Assembly (NCBI GenBank): GCA_028279425.1
Contig: JANQNV010000072.1
Span: 1-64,000, forward strand
Reading direction: 5' to 3'
Source of the DNA: Longimicrobiales bacterium
GTDB taxonomy: Bacteria; Gemmatimonadota; Gemmatimonadetes; Longimicrobiales; Gaopeijiaceae
DNA: 64,000 nucleotides
Shown piece by piece: positions 33,020 through 62,663 of this stretch. Position 1 is the stretch's first letter. Each line of letters opens with the position of its first letter. The position numbers were made by a program, and so were the translations under genes. The notes below the pieces were generated by a model. The model ran no database searches. It was not told where the DNA came from and was given only the letters and a program-made list of their open reading frames with translations.

Positions 33020-33490
33020 ATGCGCGACGACAACGACCCTCGCCGACTCGACAAGGTGCTCGAGGTGCGGCGGTGGAAGGAGCAGTCCGAGATCCAGGCC
33101 CTCGTGACCGCCCAGGAGGCGGTGACCGAAGCCGAGGCGACGCTGGCGCGACTCCGCGAGGAGTGGCGAGAGCTGCGCAACGGTATGAACGCGGCCAGCG
33201 CCGCGGTGGTCGGTCAGCTGCAGGCGTTGAGTCTGATGATGGAGCAGCTCGAACTCGGCATCGAACTCGCCGATCGCGCGCGAAGCGCGGCGGCGCACCG
33301 CGTCACCGAGCAGACCGGTTCGTATCTCGAGGCCCACGCCGAGCGTCGCGCGGTCGAGAAGGTGCAGGAACGCCGGATCGAACGCGCTGAATTGGCCCGC
33401 AAGGGGCGAGAACGGAAACGCGAAGATGAAATCGCCGTCGACCGCTTCTGGCGTGGCGAAGGCATGTCCCCGAGGGGAGATACAGAATGA
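33020..33490 (+). CDS. fliJ: Flagellar export protein FliJ
   Basis: 156-residue two-helix coiled coil with the typical FliJ start (RRLDKVLEVRRWKEQSE) and long charged helices through residue ~140. FliJ is the central stalk of the FliI hexamer and links it to FlhA. It starts at the base after the fliI stop and overlaps the next gene by 4 bases. Identification rests on coil pattern, length and position. Confidence 0.9.
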   Translation: MRDDNDPRRLDKVLEVRRWKEQSEIQALVTAQEAVTEAEATLARLREEWRELRNGMNAASAAVVGQLQALSLMMEQLELGIELADRARSAAAHRVTEQTGSYLEAHAERRAVEKVQERRIERAELARKGRERKREDEIAVDRFWRGEGMSPRGDTE

Positions 33491-34086
33491 AGCCCGTGAT
33501 TCTCGCACTGGTCGGTACGCTGATCGGTGGTGGGGTGGGTACCGGCGGCGGCGCGTTTCTGCTCGCGCAATGCGAGTCCGATGCGGCCGACGCGCACGCG
33601 TCCGACGACGCCGTCCACGACAGCACGGCGGTCGACTCGACCGCCGTCATCGAGGCCGAGGGCCCCGATACGGTTGGCGCGCTCGGGCCGCTTCCCGACC
33701 ACGCTGCCGACTCGGTCGCCGCCCCCGGCGACGAGGCGGAGCCTGCGCCGACCCCGGAAGACGTCGCCCCGCCTGCCGACGTCGAGGCCGCAGCGGAGCC
33801 CGATACGCCTCCGCCGGGATCGATCGATCCGGTGGATCCGGCGGTGGAGCCGATCGTGCTCGCGCCGACGCCCGACCCGACGGCGCTTCGCCGGCTGGCC
33901 CGAATCTTCTCGAACATGAAGGCCGAACAGGCGGCCGCGGTGATGGTGGAACTGACCGACGCCGAGGCGCAGCGGATCCTCGTCAGTATGTCCGAACGGG
34001 CGGCCGCCGCCATTCTCGGCAAGATGGATTCGTCGCGAGCTGCGGTGCTGAGTCAGTTGGTGCTCGGCGGGGGAGGTGAGGAATGA
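33487..34086 (+). CDS. MotE/YlxF-like flagellar protein
   Basis: 199 residues. One N-terminal TM (VILALVGTLIGGGVGTGGGAFLLA) is followed by a ~110-residue acidic Pro/Ala linker. The C-terminal MgtE-N-like helical domain reads RRLARIFSNMKAEQAAAVMV then ELTDAEAQRILVSMSERAAA. The fliJ-[this]-fliK order equals B. subtilis fliJ-ylxF-fliK, and MotE-family proteins share the same MgtE-N-like C-domain. It probably acts as a periplasmic or membrane chaperone for motor parts. ATGA overlaps on both sides. Confidence 0.8.
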   Translation: MKPVILALVGTLIGGGVGTGGGAFLLAQCESDAADAHASDDAVHDSTAVDSTAVIEAEGPDTVGALGPLPDHAADSVAAPGDEAEPAPTPEDVAPPADVEAAAEPDTPPPGSIDPVDPAVEPIVLAPTPDPTALRRLARIFSNMKAEQAAAVMVELTDAEAQRILVSMSERAAAAILGKMDSSRAAVLSQLVLGGGGEE

Positions 34087-35939
34087 GCGGCCTCGACATC
34101 GGCGGCGCATCCTTCTTCCACTCCGCCGGTGCGGATGCACCCAGGGCCGGGGAAGGCGTTCTCGCTCCGACCCCCACCGAGGGCCGCGAGGGTCGTGGTG
34201 GAACGCTTCGACAACACCTCGAGCGCGCGGCCTTCCCCGCCGTCTTCCTGACGCTCCTCGGCACCCCGGTCGAGGCCGAGGTGTCGTCGGCCGACGCGGT
34301 CGGCGAGGTCTCGGTGCCGCTAGGCGAAGAAGAGGTGCTCGACTTCGACGCGGTGGTCGACCTGGCGTTTCTTCTGGGCGAAGAATTGGAGTACCTCGAA
34401 GAGGGCCTCGATGCCGCGACCGACTTCTGGCAGCTCGGCGAGCAGATGGCCGACCTCGCCCCGTCTGCCGATGGCGAGACGGAGCGGGCCCTCCTCCGGG
34501 AGTTCACGGCGCTCCTCGGAGTGCACGAGGCCGTGGTGGGCCCCTACGCTCGCGGCGAGGGCGAACTCGCGGCCCGAGTCGTGTCGGCTGTCGAGGGCGT
34601 GACGGCGATTCCGTCGGTCCAGGTCGCCGACACACTGGAGGGGTGGGGGCTCAACCCGGAGTTCCAGTCGCGACTGTCGCGCGTGATCGACCGCATGCGG
34701 ACGGAATACGGCATGGACGTCGAGGTGTTCGAGGGGTACCGGGCGCAGTCGCGCCAGAACGATCTCTGGGCGCAGGGACGGACCCGCCCGGGCCCGATCG
34801 TGACCTGGACCCGCCAGTCGAGGCATACCGTCGGCGCGGCCGCGGACGTGCTCATCGACGGGGATTGGGCCAAGGGGCGAGGTGCGATTCTGCTCTCGCG
34901 CGTCGCAGCCGAGGAGGGACTCCGCACCCTGGGCCCGAGGGATCCGGGGCACGTCGAACTCCCCGGAGACATGACCCAGTTGGCCGCGCGGGCAGGAGAG
35001 CTCGATCTGGCGAAGCAGCTGGACGAGAGATTCCGACCGGTTCCCACGGGAGCGACCGCGCGGCGAGACGGTGAGGGTGCGCGTGGAGTCGCACGAGTGG
35101 CACCGGTGGCGCGCGTCGCCCGACCCGCCCGACCCGGAGGAGAGCTGGCGGCCCTGCCGACGGCAGGAGTCGATGCACGCGCTGCTCCCGGGGCGGCGAC
35201 CGATGGACTCGACGCTCGCCGACAGGCCATCGTCGAACAGGTGCGGGCCGACGCGCTCGAGCGCGCACCCGATCCAGCGGCGAACACCTCGCGTACGGCC
35301 GAAGCCGCCGCGGCGGCCCGACTGGACCGAGCGTTCCGCTCGGCCAAGGACGGAGGCGAGGCGAACGACGCGGAGGCGGGTGATCTCCGCCCCGGGCGCT
35401 CCGACGGGTTCGGCCTCGGGTCGTCGTCGGAGAGGAGCCTGGAAAGCTGGGTGCGTCGAGTGGGCAGCGGCACACCCGGGCTCGATATGATCCGTCGCGT
35501 CGAAGCGATCCGGAACGCCGAGCCGCGCGACGCCCTTCGGCGCGTGATGATTGCGCTCGAGGGGGCGGACGCCGCCGAAGTCGGCCGCGTTCGACTCGAC
35601 GTCCGCGGCGAGCGGGTGGACGCCCTCTTCGACATCGACGATCCGACTCTGGCCCGACGCATCGAGCGCGACATGGCGGCGCTCCGCACACAGTTGGCGG
35701 CCGAAGGCGTCGACCCGGGTCGTCTCAAGGTCCGCACGGGCGGAGGTGAGCTGGCGCCGAGTACTGATGTACGCATCGACGCCACGCGCTCGTCGTCCGG
35801 GGCCGAGACCAGTCGCGATCGAGGGGACGGCGGTGCTCACCATCAGGGTCGCGATCAGCGCGATTTGACCGAGCGCCGGCGCGAGTTCCCGGAAGACCAG
35901 GGCCCGTCACGGGACACCGACATGGAGGATGAATCATGA
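34083..35939 (+). CDS. fliK: Fusion: M15-type peptidase domain and FliK hook-length control domain
   Basis: 618 residues in the fliK position. Residues 1-180 are acidic and helical. Residues ~182-295 form a D-Ala-D-Ala/L-Ala-D-Glu peptidase fold of the M15 type: FEGYRAQSRQNDLWAQGR, SRHTVGAAADVLI, DPGHVEL, with zinc ligands H248, D255 and H290 and the usual R220. Residues 320-480 are an Ala/Arg-rich disordered ruler-like stretch. Residues ~485-555 carry the FliK C-domain pattern (VGRVRLDVRGERVDALFDID, then LAAEGVDPGRLKV), which flips the export gate. A peptidoglycan-cutting activity on the hook ruler is unusual, and FlgJ here lacks its muramidase. The reading frame is continuous. Confidence 0.82.
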   Translation: MSGLDIGGASFFHSAGADAPRAGEGVLAPTPTEGREGRGGTLRQHLERAAFPAVFLTLLGTPVEAEVSSADAVGEVSVPLGEEEVLDFDAVVDLAFLLGEELEYLEEGLDAATDFWQLGEQMADLAPSADGETERALLREFTALLGVHEAVVGPYARGEGELAARVVSAVEGVTAIPSVQVADTLEGWGLNPEFQSRLSRVIDRMRTEYGMDVEVFEGYRAQSRQNDLWAQGRTRPGPIVTWTRQSRHTVGAAADVLIDGDWAKGRGAILLSRVAAEEGLRTLGPRDPGHVELPGDMTQLAARAGELDLAKQLDERFRPVPTGATARRDGEGARGVARVAPVARVARPARPGGELAALPTAGVDARAAPGAATDGLDARRQAIVEQVRADALERAPDPAANTSRTAEAAAAARLDRAFRSAKDGGEANDAEAGDLRPGRSDGFGLGSSSERSLESWVRRVGSGTPGLDMIRRVEAIRNAEPRDALRRVMIALEGADAAEVGRVRLDVRGERVDALFDIDDPTLARRIERDMAALRTQLAAEGVDPGRLKVRTGGGELAPSTDVRIDATRSSSGAETSRDRGDGGAHHQGRDQRDLTERRREFPEDQGPSRDTDMEDES

Positions 35940-36586
35940 TCAGCTTGGACCCCCTGGCGGCAGCCGGGATCAACACGGAACCGAGTCTGTTGGGAACGGG
36001 GGAGGATCTCGGGAAGGACGAGTTCCTCCAGCTCCTCGTGGCGCAGTTGCGCTATCAGGACCCGCTCAACCCGATGGAGGCGCAGGAGTTCGCCTCGCAG
36101 CTGGCCGAGTTTTCGGGGCTCGAGCAGCAGATCAAGACCAACGATCTGCTCGAGGCCCAGGTGAACAGTCAGGCCGACCTCATCCAGGGCCTCCAGGCCG
36201 GTTCGGCCCTCAACGCGATCGGCCACACGGTCCTGGCCCTCGGCAACACGATCGAGGTCGCCGGTGAAGGCGCCGATCAACTCACGTTCGAGCTTGCGGC
36301 CGAGGCGTCGGACGTCACCGTCCGCTTCACCGACGAGAACGGCAACGTCGTACACACCATGGACGTCGGAGCGCTGAGCGCCGGGCGTCAGCAGTTGGAC
36401 CTGCAGGGCCTGGACACAGGCACCTACACGGTCGAAGTCGAGGCGGTCGGAGCCGAGGGGCCGGTCACCGCCACGACCTACACCTCAGGTCGCGTCGAAG
36501 GAGTCCGTTGGGGACCCGACGGTCTGGTCTTCGTCATCGGCGGACGGGAAGTCTCGTTCGCGTCCGTCCTTGAAATCACGAGTTGA
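35936..36586 (+). CDS. flgD: Flagellar hook-capping protein FlgD
   Basis: 216-residue hook cap needed for FlgE polymerisation. The N-terminal signature is DEFLQLLVAQLRYQDPLNPM then EAQEFASQLAEFSGLEQ, followed by an FlgD Ig/Tudor-like core (RFTDENGNVVHTMDVGALSA then GRQQLDL) ending in VFVIGGREVSFASVLEI. The ATG overlaps the fliK stop. Exported and later displaced by FlgK. Confidence 0.95.
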   Translation: MISLDPLAAAGINTEPSLLGTGEDLGKDEFLQLLVAQLRYQDPLNPMEAQEFASQLAEFSGLEQQIKTNDLLEAQVNSQADLIQGLQAGSALNAIGHTVLALGNTIEVAGEGADQLTFELAAEASDVTVRFTDENGNVVHTMDVGALSAGRQQLDLQGLDTGTYTVEVEAVGAEGPVTATTYTSGRVEGVRWGPDGLVFVIGGREVSFASVLEITS

Positions 36587-39711: not shown

Positions 39712-40101
39712 ATGACGACTGAATCCCCCGACCCGTCTGCCTCCAACGACGCCGGCGCCGTGGCTGCGGCTCCGCAGGCCACGCCACCCCAGGCCCCCGC
39801 CGCCGACGCGAACGCGCAGGCGGCTGCCCTGGCCGGCATGGCCGGTGGCGGCTCGCTCGAGGCCCTCTACGACCTGACCCTTCCCGTCTCGATCGAGTTG
39901 GGTCGCACCCGCATGACGGTGCAGGAGGTGCTCGCCCTCGGTCGCGGGTCGGTGGTCCAGCTGGAGCGCCTGGTCGGCGAGCCCGTCGACGTGTTCGTGG
40001 CCGATCGCCACTTCGCCGCGGGCGAGGTCGTCGTCATGGGCGAGCAGTTCGGCGTTCGCATCACGCGCATCTTCAAGTCCGGCAAGGGCGACGACAGCTG
40101 A
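39712..40101 (+). CDS. fliN: Flagellar motor switch protein FliN
   Basis: 129 residues: an Ala/Pro-rich lead of ~45 residues, then a SpoA domain (LTLPVSIELGRTRMTVQEVL-like, LGRGSVVQLERLVGEPVDVF, VMGEQFGVRITRI). It forms the lower C-ring and docks FliH. The stop overlaps the fliO-fliP start (TGATG). Confidence 0.95.
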   Translation: MTTESPDPSASNDAGAVAAAPQATPPQAPAADANAQAAALAGMAGGGSLEALYDLTLPVSIELGRTRMTVQEVLALGRGSVVQLERLVGEPVDVFVADRHFAAGEVVVMGEQFGVRITRIFKSGKGDDS

Positions 40102-41303
40102 TGTCCAGTCTGCTCGTCTCGTCGTTCTCCAGCCTCGCGCTGGTCCTCGCCGGACTCCTCGGGGCGTTGTGGCTCGTCCGCCGCTTCGGTGAGGCTCGCC
40201 GTACCGAGGCCGGTCGGCCCTCGCTGGCCCTCGAGTCGCGCCTCCCCCTCGGTCGCAACCAGGGGCTGGCCCTGGTGCGGTGTGGGGAGCGCACGCTGCT
40301 CGTGTCGTACGGCGAGGGTGGGGTCCGCCGCATCGAGGAAGAGGTTCGTCCGGCGCCCGCCGCCCGCTCGGTAGAACCGCCGCGCCCCCTCTCTCCCGCC
40401 GCCAAACCCGAGGATCACGACGCGCCGCTTCGATTCCCACTCGGCCGGCGTGCGCGCACGCTGTCGACGCTTCTGCTCGCGGCCGGGATGCTCGTGGTCG
40501 GGACCGCGTCGCTGTCTGCTCAGGCTGCTCCACCCGTGCAGCCCGGCCCCCAGGCTCTGGTCGGCCCCCAGGCGCCGCCGCCGACCCCGCTGGTCGGTCC
40601 CGAGGCCGGCTTCGGCCCGGCCATCGGCCAACTTCCGCCGGTATCGGTTCAGATGGGGCCCGAGGGCGAGGGCTTTCGCCTCGACGGCACGGTCGGGACG
40701 GTGGTGCTCCTCGGCCTCATGTCGATCGCGCCCACGCTGCTGCTGCTCACGACGAGCTTCACGCGCATCCTCGTGGTGCTCCACTTCCTCCGGCAGGCCC
40801 TGGGCACGCAGAACACCCCACCCGGCCACCTCCTGGCGGCGCTGGCGCTGCTCCTCACCTCGGTCGTCATGGCTCCGACCCTGGCCGAGATCAACGCCAC
40901 CGCCATTCAGCCGTGGACGCAGGGCACCCTCGACGAGGGAGGCATGATCCAGCGGGCCGCCGTGCCCCTCAAGGCGTTCATGCTCGACCATACGCGCCCC
41001 GAGGATCTTCAGACCTTCGTAGAACTCGGCGTGGGCCCTGTGCCGATGACCGGCGCCGACGTTCCGATGGTGACCCTGATGTCGGCGTTCGCCCTGAGTG
41101 AGCTCCGGGCGGCCTTCGAGATCGGCTTCGCGCTGTTCCTGCCGTTCGTGGTGATCGACCTCGTGGTCGCCGCGGTCCTCACGTCGATGGGCATGTTCAT
41201 GCTGCCGCCGACGATGATCGCGCTGCCGTGCAAGCTGATGCTCTTCGTCTTGATGGACGGGTGGTCGCTCGTGGTGACCAGCGTCGTCCAGAGCTTCATC
41301 TGA
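40101..41303 (+). CDS. fliP: FliO-FliP fusion, flagellar export gate
   Basis: 400 residues. Residues 1-85 are FliO-like: a TM (LALVLAGLLGALWLVRRFG) followed by a small domain with LALESRLPLGRNQGLALVRC then GERTLLVSYG. A Pro-rich linker (~83-115) leads to a signal-peptide-like segment (TLSTLLLAAGMLVVGTASLSA, ~120-140) and then complete FliP: MSIAPTLLLLTTSFTRILVV, RQALGTQNTPPG, LKAFMLDHTRPEDL, ALSELRAAFEIGF. The frame is continuous with no start codon at the junction, so one polypeptide is made and may be cleaved after the internal signal. FliP is the pentameric core of the gate; FliO is its assembly chaperone. Confidence 0.92.
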   Translation: MSSLLVSSFSSLALVLAGLLGALWLVRRFGEARRTEAGRPSLALESRLPLGRNQGLALVRCGERTLLVSYGEGGVRRIEEEVRPAPAARSVEPPRPLSPAAKPEDHDAPLRFPLGRRARTLSTLLLAAGMLVVGTASLSAQAAPPVQPGPQALVGPQAPPPTPLVGPEAGFGPAIGQLPPVSVQMGPEGEGFRLDGTVGTVVLLGLMSIAPTLLLLTTSFTRILVVLHFLRQALGTQNTPPGHLLAALALLLTSVVMAPTLAEINATAIQPWTQGTLDEGGMIQRAAVPLKAFMLDHTRPEDLQTFVELGVGPVPMTGADVPMVTLMSAFALSELRAAFEIGFALFLPFVVIDLVVAAVLTSMGMFMLPPTMIALPCKLMLFVLMDGWSLVVTSVVQSFI

Positions 41304-51811: not shown

Positions 51812-52842
51812 TGATGCGCACGCTGTCGTTGGCGCTGGTGCTGCTCGGACTTCTGCCCCTGCAGGTGTCGGGACAGATCACCACGCGCATCAAGGACCTC
51901 ACCGTGATCGAGGGCGACGTCCCCGTTCGCCTCGTGGGGTACGGGTTGGTCGTGGGTCTCGACGGTACGGGAGACCGCGCGATCGGCACCTCGATCGGGG
52001 GCGGTGCGACCGTGCGGTCGGTGGCCAACCTGCTTCGCAACCTCGGGGTCGACGTGCCGGAGAATGTGATCCGGACGCGAAACGCCGCCGCCGTGCTCGT
52101 CACGGCCGAGGTGTCGTCCTACCTGAGGCGCGGCAACCGCTTCGACGTCTCCGTGGCGTCTCTCGGCGACGCGACGTCGCTTCGCGGCGGCCAGCTGTGG
52201 GTGACGCCGCTCGTCGGTGAACTCCAGGGGCGGCCCATCGCCACCGCGCAGGGTTCGGTCGTGCTCAGCCAGGGCAACATCGACGGCGCCCGGGTGGTCG
52301 AAAACTCGGGGCTCCTTCCCCAGGGCGGTGTCGCGGTGGCCGACCTCGCATCGTTCGGGCTCGCCAACGTGAGCCGGCTCGTCCTGAACCGACCCGACTT
52401 GACCACGGCCCAGCGGATCGCCGAGACGATCAGCGCGACGCTGGGTGATGGGGCCGCGCAGGTCGAAGATCCGGGATCGGTGGGCGTGCAGCTGCCGGCG
52501 GACCAGGATCCGGCCACCGTACTCGCGCAGTTGGGCGAACTCGAAGTCACTCCGGATGCCGCCGCCCAGGTGGTGATCGACGCGAGAGACGGAACGGTGG
52601 CCGCGGGTGGACCGCTTCAGGTCGGGCCCGGGGTCGTCAGTCACGGATACCTCACCCTCAGCGTCGGCTCCGAAAACCAGAACCCGCCCGCAGAGGGGTC
52701 GGTTCGAATGGATCCGGGTGTCAGTGTGCAGGATGTGGCCGAGGCTCTGCATGCGGTGGGAGCCACACCGGAATCCATCGCTGCGGTGTTCGAGTCGCTG
52801 AATCGAGTCGGGGCGTTGCGGGCGCAGGTCGTCGTCCGATGA
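51808..52842 (+). CDS. flgI: Flagellar P-ring protein FlgI
   Basis: 344 residues with a signal peptide (TLSLALVLLGLLPLQVSG). Motifs: RIKDLTVIEGDVPVRLVGYG then LVVGLDGTGDR, LLRNLGVDVPENVIRTRNAA then AVLVTAEV, GDATSLRGGQLWVTPL, and a long second domain ending VQDVAEALHAVGATPESIAA. Peptidoglycan-associated bushing around the rod. The ATG overlaps the flgH stop. Confidence 0.97.
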   Translation: MMMRTLSLALVLLGLLPLQVSGQITTRIKDLTVIEGDVPVRLVGYGLVVGLDGTGDRAIGTSIGGGATVRSVANLLRNLGVDVPENVIRTRNAAAVLVTAEVSSYLRRGNRFDVSVASLGDATSLRGGQLWVTPLVGELQGRPIATAQGSVVLSQGNIDGARVVENSGLLPQGGVAVADLASFGLANVSRLVLNRPDLTTAQRIAETISATLGDGAAQVEDPGSVGVQLPADQDPATVLAQLGELEVTPDAAAQVVIDARDGTVAAGGPLQVGPGVVSHGYLTLSVGSENQNPPAEGSVRMDPGVSVQDVAEALHAVGATPESIAAVFESLNRVGALRAQVVVR

Positions 52843-53225
52843 ACGTGTCCGGCCCGAGCGGTCCCGACCCGATCCTCGGTGCACTCCGGATCCTGCGCCG
52901 GGCCGAGCCGGGCATGGCACGCCCCACGGGCGTCGATGGGCTGCATCGCGCAGCGCCCGACGCCGGACTCGAGTCCGGGGTCGATCCTCGACTCCGCGAG
53001 GCGACCGTCGCCCTCGAGGGGGTCTTCGCCCGTGAACTCGTGAAGGCGCTGCGCGGCACGGTGCCCGAGGGGGGATCCCCCGACGCGCCTGGCGGGCAAC
53101 TCTACACCTCGCTCTTCGACGATCACCTCGCCGAGGTTCTCGCGGGAGACGACGGTCTCGGGCTCTCGGCGGCGATGCTCAAGCAGCTGATTGGAGCTGC
53201 CGATCCTGCTCCCGGAGGGTCGTGA
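52839..53225 (+). CDS. flgJ: Rod-cap protein FlgJ, N-terminal domain only
   Basis: 128 residues. The rod-binding domain is recognised from LREATVALEGVFARELVKAL, then RGTVPEGG, then LYTSLFDDHLAEVLAGDDGL then GLSAAMLKQL. The muramidase domain that follows in proteobacterial FlgJ (total ~310 residues) is absent, so another enzyme must open peptidoglycan for the rod; the FliK fusion at 34083 is a candidate. Overlaps both neighbours by 4 bases. Confidence 0.9.
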   Translation: MNVSGPSGPDPILGALRILRRAEPGMARPTGVDGLHRAAPDAGLESGVDPRLREATVALEGVFARELVKALRGTVPEGGSPDAPGGQLYTSLFDDHLAEVLAGDDGLGLSAAMLKQLIGAADPAPGGS

Positions 53226-59579: not shown

Positions 59580-62500
59580 ATGGAATCATCGATCAGCGGA
59601 TTGGCCAGCGGGATCCAGTGGGCCGACCTCATCGACGACATCATTTCAGTCGAACGCCGCCCCGTGGCGCGGCTCGAGGCCGAGATCGAGGCTCAGCAGG
59701 TCAAGACGGACGCCTGGGATACCGTGCGTTCGCTTCTCCAGGGTCTCAACTCGGCGACGACGGCGCTGTCGGCCTCGACGGCCAACGCCCTCGATGCGTT
59801 CCAGGTCAACCTCTCGGGGTTTCCGACGGCGGGTGGTAGCCCCCTGCAGGCCTTCGTGTCTTCGGACGCCTCTCCCGGGAACCACACGGTGCGGGTCCTC
59901 GCCCGTGCCGAGAGTGAGATGGTGGGGGGGGCGCTTCAGGCGTCCCGCTCGGATGCCCTCGGTCTGTCCGGCGAATTCCTGGTCAACGACCGCGCCGTGG
60001 TCGTCGAGGCCACGGACTCGCTCGACGATATCGCTGGGAAGATCAATGCGGTCGATACCGGGGCGTCCCGCTCAGGCGTCGGTGCGACCGTGGCCTCGGT
60101 CGACGGTGCGTCCCGGCTGTTGCTCTCGGCGTCCGAGACCGGCGAAAACGGGATCCGCCTGGCCGACCCCGACGGCGTACTCCAGACGCTCGGCCTCGTC
60201 GACGATACGACCTCGCTCACCAATCGCACGGCCAGTGGTTTTGCGACTTCGACCTTCGCCGACGATACGACGGCCGTCGCGTCGCTTCGAGGGTTGAGCA
60301 GCGGCGGGGTCGGGACGATTCAGCTGAGCCAGGGGCCGGGTCAGTTTTCCGTCGTTCTCGACCTCACCTCGATGAGCCTTTCCGACGTTGCCGCCGAGAT
60401 CAATGCCGCCGCTGGGGTGGCGGGCAGTGGCGTGACGGCCAACATCGAGACCAGCCCGGACGGGTCCGTTCGGCTCGTGTTGTCGGGTACGGCCAGCTAT
60501 GTCGACACCGCCGGCGTGCTCGAGGTGCTCGGGGCCCTGGAAGGGGGTCGCTCCGCGGTAGCCCAACGCATCGAAGGCGGCGTTCTCGCCACCGACGGTA
60601 CCGGGACGCCGGCCACGGCCGCGACCTCGCTCTCGGCGCTCTTCACGGGGGGGGCCGCGGCCGGCATCACGGCCGGGGACACCCTCACCTTCGAGGGGAC
60701 CCGCGGCGACGGTACGACGTTTTCGTTCGTCCACACGATCTCCGGTGGCGACACGCTACAGACGATTCTGGACCGCCTGAACGGCGCCGAGGGATACGAC
60801 GGTTCGGCCACGGCCTCGATCTCGGCCACCGGGACGCTGACCGTCACGGACGGGTCGTCGGGAGCGTCGCTCCTCGACCTGTCCATGTTTGCCGGCAACG
60901 AGGGAGGTGGGACCTTCGATCCCGGGGCCTTCACGGTGGCCGAGGAGGGTCGCCGTCGCGAGATCGTGGCGGGCTCCAACGCCCTGCTCGAAGTCAACGG
61001 CACGTTTCTTGAGCGATCGTCCAACACGGTGACCGACGCGATCCAGGGCGTCACGCTCAACCTCACCAGTGAGGATCCTGGGACGGAAGTCGATCTTACG
61101 ATCACCCGCGACGTGTCGGCAGCGGCCGAGGCGATCACGGCCTTGGTCACGGCGTACAACGAGTTCTCGCAGTTCGTCGACCTGGGACTGGGCGTGACGG
61201 GTAACGCACGACCCTCGCTTGCGGGCGACGCGGTGCTTCGGAACATGCGCAGCACCCTTCAGCAGTCGATGCAGTCCCAGATCCTTCAGAGCCTCGGTGG
61301 CGGGTACGCCCGTCTGGGTGACATCGGGATCGAGATCGAGAAGGACCGCACGTTTTCGGTCGACAGCGCCGTGCTGACCGCGGCGCTGGAGGACGACTTC
61401 GCCGGCGTATCGAACGTACTGCGTGGGCAGGGCTTCGCGTCGACCTCGGCGATCTCGTTCGTCGGGGCGACCAGCGCTACCCAGCAGGGCGAATACGCCG
61501 TCGAAGTCACCGCTGTGGGTACTGCCGCCTCGCTGACCTCGGTCGGCGCCCTGGCCACCTACGTCGACGACGGGGTGGCCGACCTGCTGTCGCTCACGGA
61601 CCTGTCATCGAACCGAGCGTATGAAATCTCGCTGGGCAATGGTGACACGCTTCAGGAGATCGTAGACCGTCTGAATGCCGAGCTCGCGACCGCGCAGGCA
61701 CGGGAGCTCGCGGCATCGCGCGTCGTCTACAGCGACGCCGGCGCAACGGCCGCGGCCGACGAAAACACCCTGCTCTCGGACCTGTTCTACGGCGACGGTA
61801 GCGGGGCGGGCTTCGAGGCCGGGACCGTGGTGAACTTCAGTGGGACGGCCGGGAACGGCGTGTCGTTTCTTCGAAACTTCACGGTGACCGATCCTTCGAC
61901 CCAGACGTTGGGCGACCTCCGCGACTCGCTGTCGGGCGCCCTGCTCGGTACGGCCGAAGTGACCGTCGAGAACGGCGCTCTGAGCGTTCGATCCACCACA
62001 CCCGGAACGTCGCTCCTCTCGGTCACCGTGGGGTCGGATATCGACGGAAACAGCTCGTTCCTCGGCACCATGGACGTCGAGGTCGAAGGGCGGAACGCAT
62101 CGGCCCTCGTAGCCGAGGTTGTGGGGAGCGAGATCGACATCCGCTCACCGGTCGAGGGCGAGGCCTATGGCTTCACGCTGGGCTTCACGGCCGGCGGCGC
62201 CGACGGTACGGGCGGCCTCGGGCTCGCTGCGGGCACCTATCAGGGGACCGACGTGGTCGGAACCATCGGTGGGGAGCCGGCGACGGGTGTGGGCGCCATC
62301 CTGACGGGAGCGGCGGGGAGCGCGGCCGAGGGTCTATCGGTCGGCACCGCGGGTGCCGGTCTCGGCGCCCTGGGAAGCGTCACCTACAACCGCGGCGTCG
62401 CCGCCTCGATGGAGGCCGTCCTCGAACGCCTCCTCGGAACCGACCCGGGCTCGGTCACCTCGATCCAGGAGGGATTGGACCGTACGGTCACTCGCCTCGA

Positions 62501-62663
62501 GGATCGCGTCGATCAGTGGGAGGGGCGTCTGGAGATCCGCCGCGACCAGCTGATTCGCCAATTCACCGCGCTCGAAGAGGCGCTGGCCCGGGCGCAGTCC
62601 CAGTCGGCGTGGCTGAGCGCTCAGTTCGCGTCACTCAACGGTACCAACCAGAGCAACGGCTGA
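59580..62663 (+). CDS. fliD: Flagellar filament cap protein FliD, enlarged
   Basis: 1027 residues, about twice the usual size. The FliD N-domain reads SSISGLASGIQWADLIDDII then SVERRPVARLEAEIEAQQVK. The C-domain ends with the coiled coil VTRLEDRVDQWEGRLEIRRD then QLIRQFTALEEALARAQSQS. The middle holds a diverged repeat: ~347-467 and ~727-843 share the order TxLSxLF, AGxxxxFxGTxGxGxxF, TLxxxxDxLxGA, SLLxxxx. AAGGAG precedes the ATG. Exported and sits at the filament tip. Confidence 0.92.
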   Translation: MESSISGLASGIQWADLIDDIISVERRPVARLEAEIEAQQVKTDAWDTVRSLLQGLNSATTALSASTANALDAFQVNLSGFPTAGGSPLQAFVSSDASPGNHTVRVLARAESEMVGGALQASRSDALGLSGEFLVNDRAVVVEATDSLDDIAGKINAVDTGASRSGVGATVASVDGASRLLLSASETGENGIRLADPDGVLQTLGLVDDTTSLTNRTASGFATSTFADDTTAVASLRGLSSGGVGTIQLSQGPGQFSVVLDLTSMSLSDVAAEINAAAGVAGSGVTANIETSPDGSVRLVLSGTASYVDTAGVLEVLGALEGGRSAVAQRIEGGVLATDGTGTPATAATSLSALFTGGAAAGITAGDTLTFEGTRGDGTTFSFVHTISGGDTLQTILDRLNGAEGYDGSATASISATGTLTVTDGSSGASLLDLSMFAGNEGGGTFDPGAFTVAEEGRRREIVAGSNALLEVNGTFLERSSNTVTDAIQGVTLNLTSEDPGTEVDLTITRDVSAAAEAITALVTAYNEFSQFVDLGLGVTGNARPSLAGDAVLRNMRSTLQQSMQSQILQSLGGGYARLGDIGIEIEKDRTFSVDSAVLTAALEDDFAGVSNVLRGQGFASTSAISFVGATSATQQGEYAVEVTAVGTAASLTSVGALATYVDDGVADLLSLTDLSSNRAYEISLGNGDTLQEIVDRLNAELATAQARELAASRVVYSDAGATAAADENTLLSDLFYGDGSGAGFEAGTVVNFSGTAGNGVSFLRNFTVTDPSTQTLGDLRDSLSGALLGTAEVTVENGALSVRSTTPGTSLLSVTVGSDIDGNSSFLGTMDVEVEGRNASALVAEVVGSEIDIRSPVEGEAYGFTLGFTAGGADGTGGLGLAAGTYQGTDVVGTIGGEPATGVGAILTGAAGSAAEGLSVGTAGAGLGALGSVTYNRGVAASMEAVLERLLGTDPGSVTSIQEGLDRTVTRLEDRVDQWEGRLEIRRDQLIRQFTALEEALARAQSQSAWLSAQFASLNGTNQSNG

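Follow-up and report, generated by a model that had tools for sequence, protein, structure and literature searches.

A conserved M15C-type peptidase domain inside the flagellar hook ruler FliK of Gemmatimonadota, a candidate tool for opening the cell wall

The window, a stretch of 64,000 nucleotides from a Longimicrobiales bacterium of the phylum Gemmatimonadota, carries a flagellar gene cluster in which fliK contains a built-in M15 peptidase domain (Table 1). According to Pfam, this gene is preceded by genes for FliG, FliH, the export ATPase (FliI), FliJ and a protein that we take to be MotE-like, and it is followed by those for FlgD, FlgE, FliL, FliM, FliN, a FliO and FliP frame, FliR, FlhB and FlhA. 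The FliO and FliP domains stand together in one frame (window 40101-41303). FliD looks long (1027 aa, window 59580-62663), with FliD_N, Flagellin_IN and FliD_C all present. The protein encoded by fliK combines a Flg_hook domain with a position in a hook-basal-body locus, adjoining flgD and flgE. The sequence-only reading had proposed that a single frame holds both a peptidase motif set and a FliK C-terminal domain, and this was borne out. Judged by sequence and structural model, the window protein is a genuine FliK in which an M15C-type domain separates the predicted export signal from the C-terminal switch domain.

Table 1. Features of the fliK locus in the window, and related frames at other loci
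Feature	Coordinates	Strand	Remarks
MotE-like gene, just upstream of fliK	33487..34086	+	MgtE_N match, E 1.9e-5
fliK with built-in M15 peptidase domain	34083..35939	+	618 aa; open from ATG to TGA; Flg_hook and VanY matches; PDB matches to M15C endopeptidases
F51-P-A-V-F55, FxxxPhi motif	34233..34247	+	resembles the gate recognition motif seen in early substrates of flagellar export
M15C-type peptidase domain, residues 187-300	34641..34982	+	profile, model and fold match
R220 of GYR, conserved active-site arginine	34740..34742	+	87/87 domains
H248, first zinc ligand (predicted)	34824..34826	+	86/87 domains; Q in L086 (G172)
D255, second zinc ligand (predicted)	34845..34847	+	87/87 domains
D287, presumed catalytic acid, three residues before H290	34941..34943	+	87/87 domains
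H290, third zinc ligand (predicted)	34950..34952	+	87/87 domains
(V-A-x)4 tripeptide repeat, residues 336-347	35088..35123	+	lies after the M15 domain in the majority of orthologs
Flg_hook (FliK C-terminal, export-switch) domain, residues 503-555	35589..35747	+	PF02120, E 2.2e-5, below the curated Pfam cut-off
flgD, hook cap, overlaps the end of fliK	35936..36586	+	PF03963, E 5.4e-21
flgJ, rod-binding domain only, without hydrolase	52839..53225	+	PF10135 only, 128 aa
FlgJ-SLT	L034:8335-9225	+	f11; lytic transglycosylase on FlgJ
FlgJ-SLT	L035:7535-8410	-	f11; lytic transglycosylase on FlgJ
G040 FliK, decayed M15 domain	L051:4833-6551	-	HxxxxxxD and DxxH motifs lost, zinc ligands gone

The nearest relatives of the domain, both by sequence and by predicted fold, are M15C L-alanyl-D-glutamate endopeptidases (Ply500, LysB4, ChiX), and the M15 fold that had been proposed was recovered in the predicted structure. 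Membership in M15C is based on the PDB profile and the predicted fold, the VanY match of the domain reaching 15.6 bits against a curated cut-off of 25. The Pfam model PF13539 (Peptidase_M15_4) gave no match in the window's own genome; it thus misses the domain, and it was not used for the survey. The domain was aligned with its orthologs, 87 domains from 86 genomes, to which G374 contributes two. R220, S246, D255, D287, G289 and H290 are invariant in all 87, and the complete predicted zinc triad H248-D255-H290, whose conservation in orthologs the earlier reading had put at stake, is present in 86. D287 is presumably catalytic, by analogy with M15C.

We then compared the domain with the rest of the protein and with its neighbors. 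Mean column identity was 64% for the M15 domain (30 rows), as opposed to 25% for the whole FliK frame (26 rows) and 17% in the other 57 frames. Outside the genus, identity to the window was 49-61% for the domain versus 24-31% for the FliK frames. In blastp searches against 30 loci, the domain was 52-72% identical to that of the window, FlgE 44-85% and FlgD 28-74%; the C-terminal part of FliK, where it was matched, was 23-34% identical outside the genus. FliK outside the M15 domain thus drifts much more than the domain itself. A Flg_hook match at E <= 0.01 was obtained by Pfam in 57 of the 83 orthologous frames scanned out of 87 (L020, L021, L024 and L025 were left out), and in about one third of orthologous frames the C-terminal domain appears too diverged for Pfam, or cut off.

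Conservation of this kind bears on the notion that the M15 fold is a structural or zinc-switch module, serving as a plug or as a length element of the ruler. Hedgehog proteins indeed use the same fold without peptidase action. However, the invariance of D287 and R220 in 87/87 domains is more than a zinc-only fold would need. Moreover, the stretch before the domain spans 136-491 residues (30 stop-to-stop frames, in which true starts are undefined), and the domain therefore appears to have no fixed place in the ruler. We regard a structural or zinc-switch role as unlikely.

The distribution of the fusion was investigated in 395 genomes of the phylum. The window protein matched 96 of them, 86 strongly. 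Ten matches were set aside: nine were weak and came from genomes of family f3 without flgI (G032, G180, G243, G251, G286, G312, G347, G362 and G380), four of these nine proving to be separate M15 proteins when inspected at the locus, and that of G376 was confined to residues 27-90, outside the M15 domain. The flagellar P-ring gene flgI was found above the cut-off in 106/395 genomes (G392, with a match below the cut-off, was left out of this number). All 86 genomes with a strong M15-FliK match carry flgI, and no strong match occurred among the 289 genomes without above-cut-off flgI. The 20 flgI-positive genomes that lack a strong match comprise six of f11, which belongs to another class, ten of f4, and G040, G188, G204 and G353. 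Outside f4, the class has 90 flgI-positive genomes, 86 of which thus carry the fusion; among the four exceptions, G040 has a decayed copy and fliK was unreadable in the other three, probably due to assembly. Indeed, in G188 and G353 flgD lies at a contig end, so fliK has probably been cut off, and in G204 flgD was not found. As genomes were counted by a similarity that the M15 domain dominates, decayed copies would be missed in these counts.

The neighborhood is conserved as well. A flagellar neighbor gene stands beside the M15-bearing frame in 86/87 loci; a MotE-like match adjoins it in 28 of 30 loci and in 48 of 57 further ones, and a flgD match in 26/30 and 53/57, respectively. These orthologs also dispose of the idea that the fusion is an artefact of assembly or reading frame. 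The window genome, in 339 contigs, 89.78% complete and with 5.76% contamination, would give some ground for such a concern, but the loci with the same neighborhood include those of the single-contig genomes G069 and G074, and 57 of 83 such frames also match Flg_hook. We therefore rule this reading out, its probability being negligible. As far as sequence can tell, the M15-FliK architecture is genuine, strongly selected and common across the class.

The M15 domain is followed by a tripeptide repeat. Units of the form (V/I/L-A-x)n number at least three in 80/87 frames and at least four in 75/87; in the first 30 frames, where they were observed 30 and 29 times, shuffles of the same stretches gave expected counts of 0.24 and 0.0. 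Among the seven frames without the repeat, at least two run off the end of a contig, and in L099 the repeat is imperfect. None of eight FliK frames that were verified by Pfam and lack an intact M15 domain (L039, L042, L044, L046, L048, L050, L051 and L053) contains the repeat; this count is restricted to verified frames and leaves out L040 and L041. Repeat and enzyme thus tend to occur together. That it docks to the rod, the hook or the wall is a guess.

We next considered how the protein might reach the wall. The residue corresponding to F51 is invariant in 26/26 rows, each of which has L or F at the fourth position after it. This F-x-x-x-L/F pattern is found at position 51 in the window protein and at positions 38-264 across 26 stop-to-stop frames, in which true starts are undefined. 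The FxxxPhi pattern resembles the gate recognition motif. No Sec-like start was found in the window protein. According to the excerpt of PMC8983047 used here, early flagellar subunits carry a gate recognition motif and FliK export requires a hydrophobic N-terminus; the FxxxPhi pattern, looked for in the text of that article, gave no match. The conserved motif, the lack of a Sec-like start and the known behavior of FliK together suggest that M15-FliK would be exported as an early substrate. In Salmonella, as described in the part of PMC13344023 that we consulted, the periplasmic activity of FliK-beta-lactamase was highest in rod and hook mutants and twofold less in PL-ring mutants, with a further drop in the wild type and in later mutants. 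Going by that part of the source, an enzyme borne on FliK can in principle work in the periplasm.

The remaining wall hydrolases were then examined. FlgJ of the window was expected to have no muramidase, and this was confirmed: only PF10135 was matched, and the glucosaminidase model PF01832 found nothing in the window genome. FlgJ here thus differs from the dual-domain type, its rod-binding domain not being fused to a wall hydrolase. Likewise, the expectation that no other wall hydrolase would be seen among the flagellar genes held for the 39 window ORFs scanned by Pfam, FliK among them, of which FliK alone matched a wall hydrolase family. PF01832, the rod-binding domain and SLT were searched for in 80 of the 107 genomes with a flgI match; 60 of these 80 carry the fusion and 20 do not. 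PF01832 was absent from all 80 flagellated genomes, that of the window included, and gave matches in 5/14 control genomes; FlgJ was found via its rod-binding domain in 78/80.

Six genomes of f11 present a different arrangement. An SLT domain shares a frame with the rod-binding domain of FlgJ in all six flagellated f11 genomes, two of which were confirmed by Pfam, and among the matches listed such a frame occurs in f11 only. Matching FlgJ-SLT frames are seen in G005, G007, G009 and G011, the SLT domain standing where proteobacterial FlgJ has its glucosaminidase. FlgJ frames measure 297-434 aa in f11 and 110-232 aa in the ten f4 genomes. The M15 profile found no match in the six f11 genomes. Thus, the wall enzyme of that class would be on FlgJ, and that of the window's class mostly on FliK.

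The ten flagellated genomes of f4 gave no FliK fusion with the M15 profile. A weak M15 match in G296 (E 0.0056) lies in a separate 149-aa frame with a stop. In six of the ten, the fliK frames were inspected by Pfam, which found Flg_hook in 6/6 and an M15 family in 0/6. Pfam detected no hydrolase in six genes of the flagellar cluster of one f4 genome, G119, and among the matches listed for f4 no SLT or M23 fell within flagellar clusters. G040 retains most of the flagellar genes looked for, and the M15 domain of G090, from the same genus, is intact. Flagellar gene clusters can therefore persist without the domain, which seems dispensable in places. In a FlgD+FlgE tree rooted on f11, built with 25 of the 30 fusion rows since the other five lacked FlgD or FlgE, f4 falls inside the fusion-bearing group, joined to f3 and f5, and loss in f4 would thus be the simpler history.

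Beyond the phylum, a limited tblastn search against phages and plasmids matched 84 phage and 19 plasmid records. Among the matches listed (20 of the 84 phage and all 19 plasmid records), none was annotated as FliK; the annotations were endolysin, carboxypeptidase, CwlK-type endopeptidase, M15 metallopeptidase, glycosyl hydrolase 108 family, hypothetical protein or none. Regarding the origin of the domain, separate M15 proteins were observed at L055-L058, in non-flagellated f3 genomes, with a D-x-GHV context as in the FliK domain (three have DPGH, one DAGH). This context, shared by four proteins of the phylum, would speak for a chromosomal over a phage source, and the separate f3 proteins are a possible source of the FliK-fused domain.

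The genomes without an intact domain raise the question of whether a housekeeping SLT or M23 enzyme, recruited to the rod, opens the wall, with the M15 domain as a minor helper or a regulatory element. Such enzymes are present and could make the hole: SLT was found in 79/80 and M23 in 18/18 genomes searched, and f4 and G040 keep flagellar genes without an intact M15 domain on FliK, two points that also count against a FliK-borne wall hydrolase. In the window genome, SLT and M23 enzymes lie outside the scanned flagellar ORFs; in the single-contig G069, all 9 M23 matches and the 3 SLT matches listed of 4 lie outside the flagellar stretch at 2.516-2.535 Mb. Recruitment of housekeeping enzymes would, however, not account for an active site that has been retained in 86 genomes of several families, and we consider it improbable.

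In Salmonella, the wall-opening job is done by the glucosaminidase of FlgJ. We think it reasonably probable, from sequence comparison and the predicted model, that in the window's class a wall hydrolase borne on FliK and delivered via the flagellar export gate opens the peptidoglycan for the rod or hook. As an early substrate, FliK would pass through the flagellar type III channel, and at the channel tip in the periplasm its M15 domain would refold and bind zinc. It would then cut peptidoglycan stem peptides beside the growing rod, and the widened mesh would let the rod and hook pass, each FliK molecule acting as both ruler and wall cutter. Support comes from the architecture, the gene neighborhood, the predicted fold, the conservation of the active site, the link to flagella and the absence of a glucosaminidase from the genomes searched; export, refolding, zinc binding, activity, substrate and timing of M15-FliK are what we infer. 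Some observations fit this proposal less well. The ortholog L086 (G172) has Q in place of H248. Periplasmic FliK-beta-lactamase was lower in wild-type Salmonella than in rod and hook mutants, in the portion of PMC13344023 that we consulted.

Moreover, FliK exported once the hook is past the outer membrane would free the enzyme outside the cell. Indeed, an active endopeptidase might act extracellularly, on neighboring cells or shed wall, rather than in assembly. In model systems, part of the FliK is released into the medium, and the nearest solved relatives of the domain are phage endolysins and ChiX. However, strong matches occur only in flagellated genomes (86/86) and beside flagellar genes in nearly every locus, the amounts released would presumably be tiny, and the class that has FlgJ-SLT without M15-FliK is a better fit to a shared assembly job. 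An extracellular role thus appears rather unlikely to us. Extending the proposal of a FliK-borne wall hydrolase, we suggest, tentatively and with slightly less than even confidence, that across one Gemmatimonadota class the hook ruler of most flagellated members is itself the enzyme that opens the wall for the flagellum. Each FliK would bring an endopeptidase to the rod tip and couple length measurement to wall opening, (VAx)n would dock or tether it, and the phylum would use two carriers, FliK-M15 or FlgJ-SLT.

Passage of the flagellum through the wall has been worked out in few lineages, where the tool is FlgJ or a separate lytic transglycosylase. Most flagellated members of the class studied here appear to use peptide-bond cleavage on another exported protein, the hook ruler. 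Within one phylum, the same job would then be placed on different exported proteins, which bears on whether wall opening is coupled to the export machine. The length and composition of FliK in M15-FliK species would likewise not be simply readable as a ruler. In the titles and abstract openings of the papers listed by our literature searches, we found no description of a peptidase-bearing FliK.

The window protein resembles FliK (PF02120) in its Flg_hook C-terminal domain, its adjoining flgD and flgE, its long low-complexity linker and an FxxxPhi motif toward the N-terminus, and differs in that its family adds a conserved peptidase domain and the (VAx)n repeat. To our knowledge, model FliK has neither. 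Compared to the M15C endopeptidases (Ply500 2vo9, LysB4 6akv, ChiX 5opz, LysECD7 8q2g), the window domain lies inside an export ruler without a Sec-like start, and its family has a conserved VTWT and D-x-GH context. Dual-domain FlgJ, a rod cap with a glucosaminidase, belongs to the beta- and gamma-proteobacteria, according to the section of PMC8517470 consulted; if our reading is true, M15-FliK would share with it the principle of mounting a wall enzyme on a substrate of flagellar export. In contrast, the carrier here is FliK, a peptide bond rather than the glycan would be cut, and FlgJ of the window has a single domain. Other systems pair a single-domain FlgJ with a lytic transglycosylase that is a separate protein, the examples in the same section being SltF and LTaseBb (BB0259); FlgJ likewise lacks a hydrolase of its own in those systems, whereas the enzyme described here is on FliK and not a separate protein. 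By analogy, M15-FliK probably works like dual-domain FlgJ, but it is not a member of that family.
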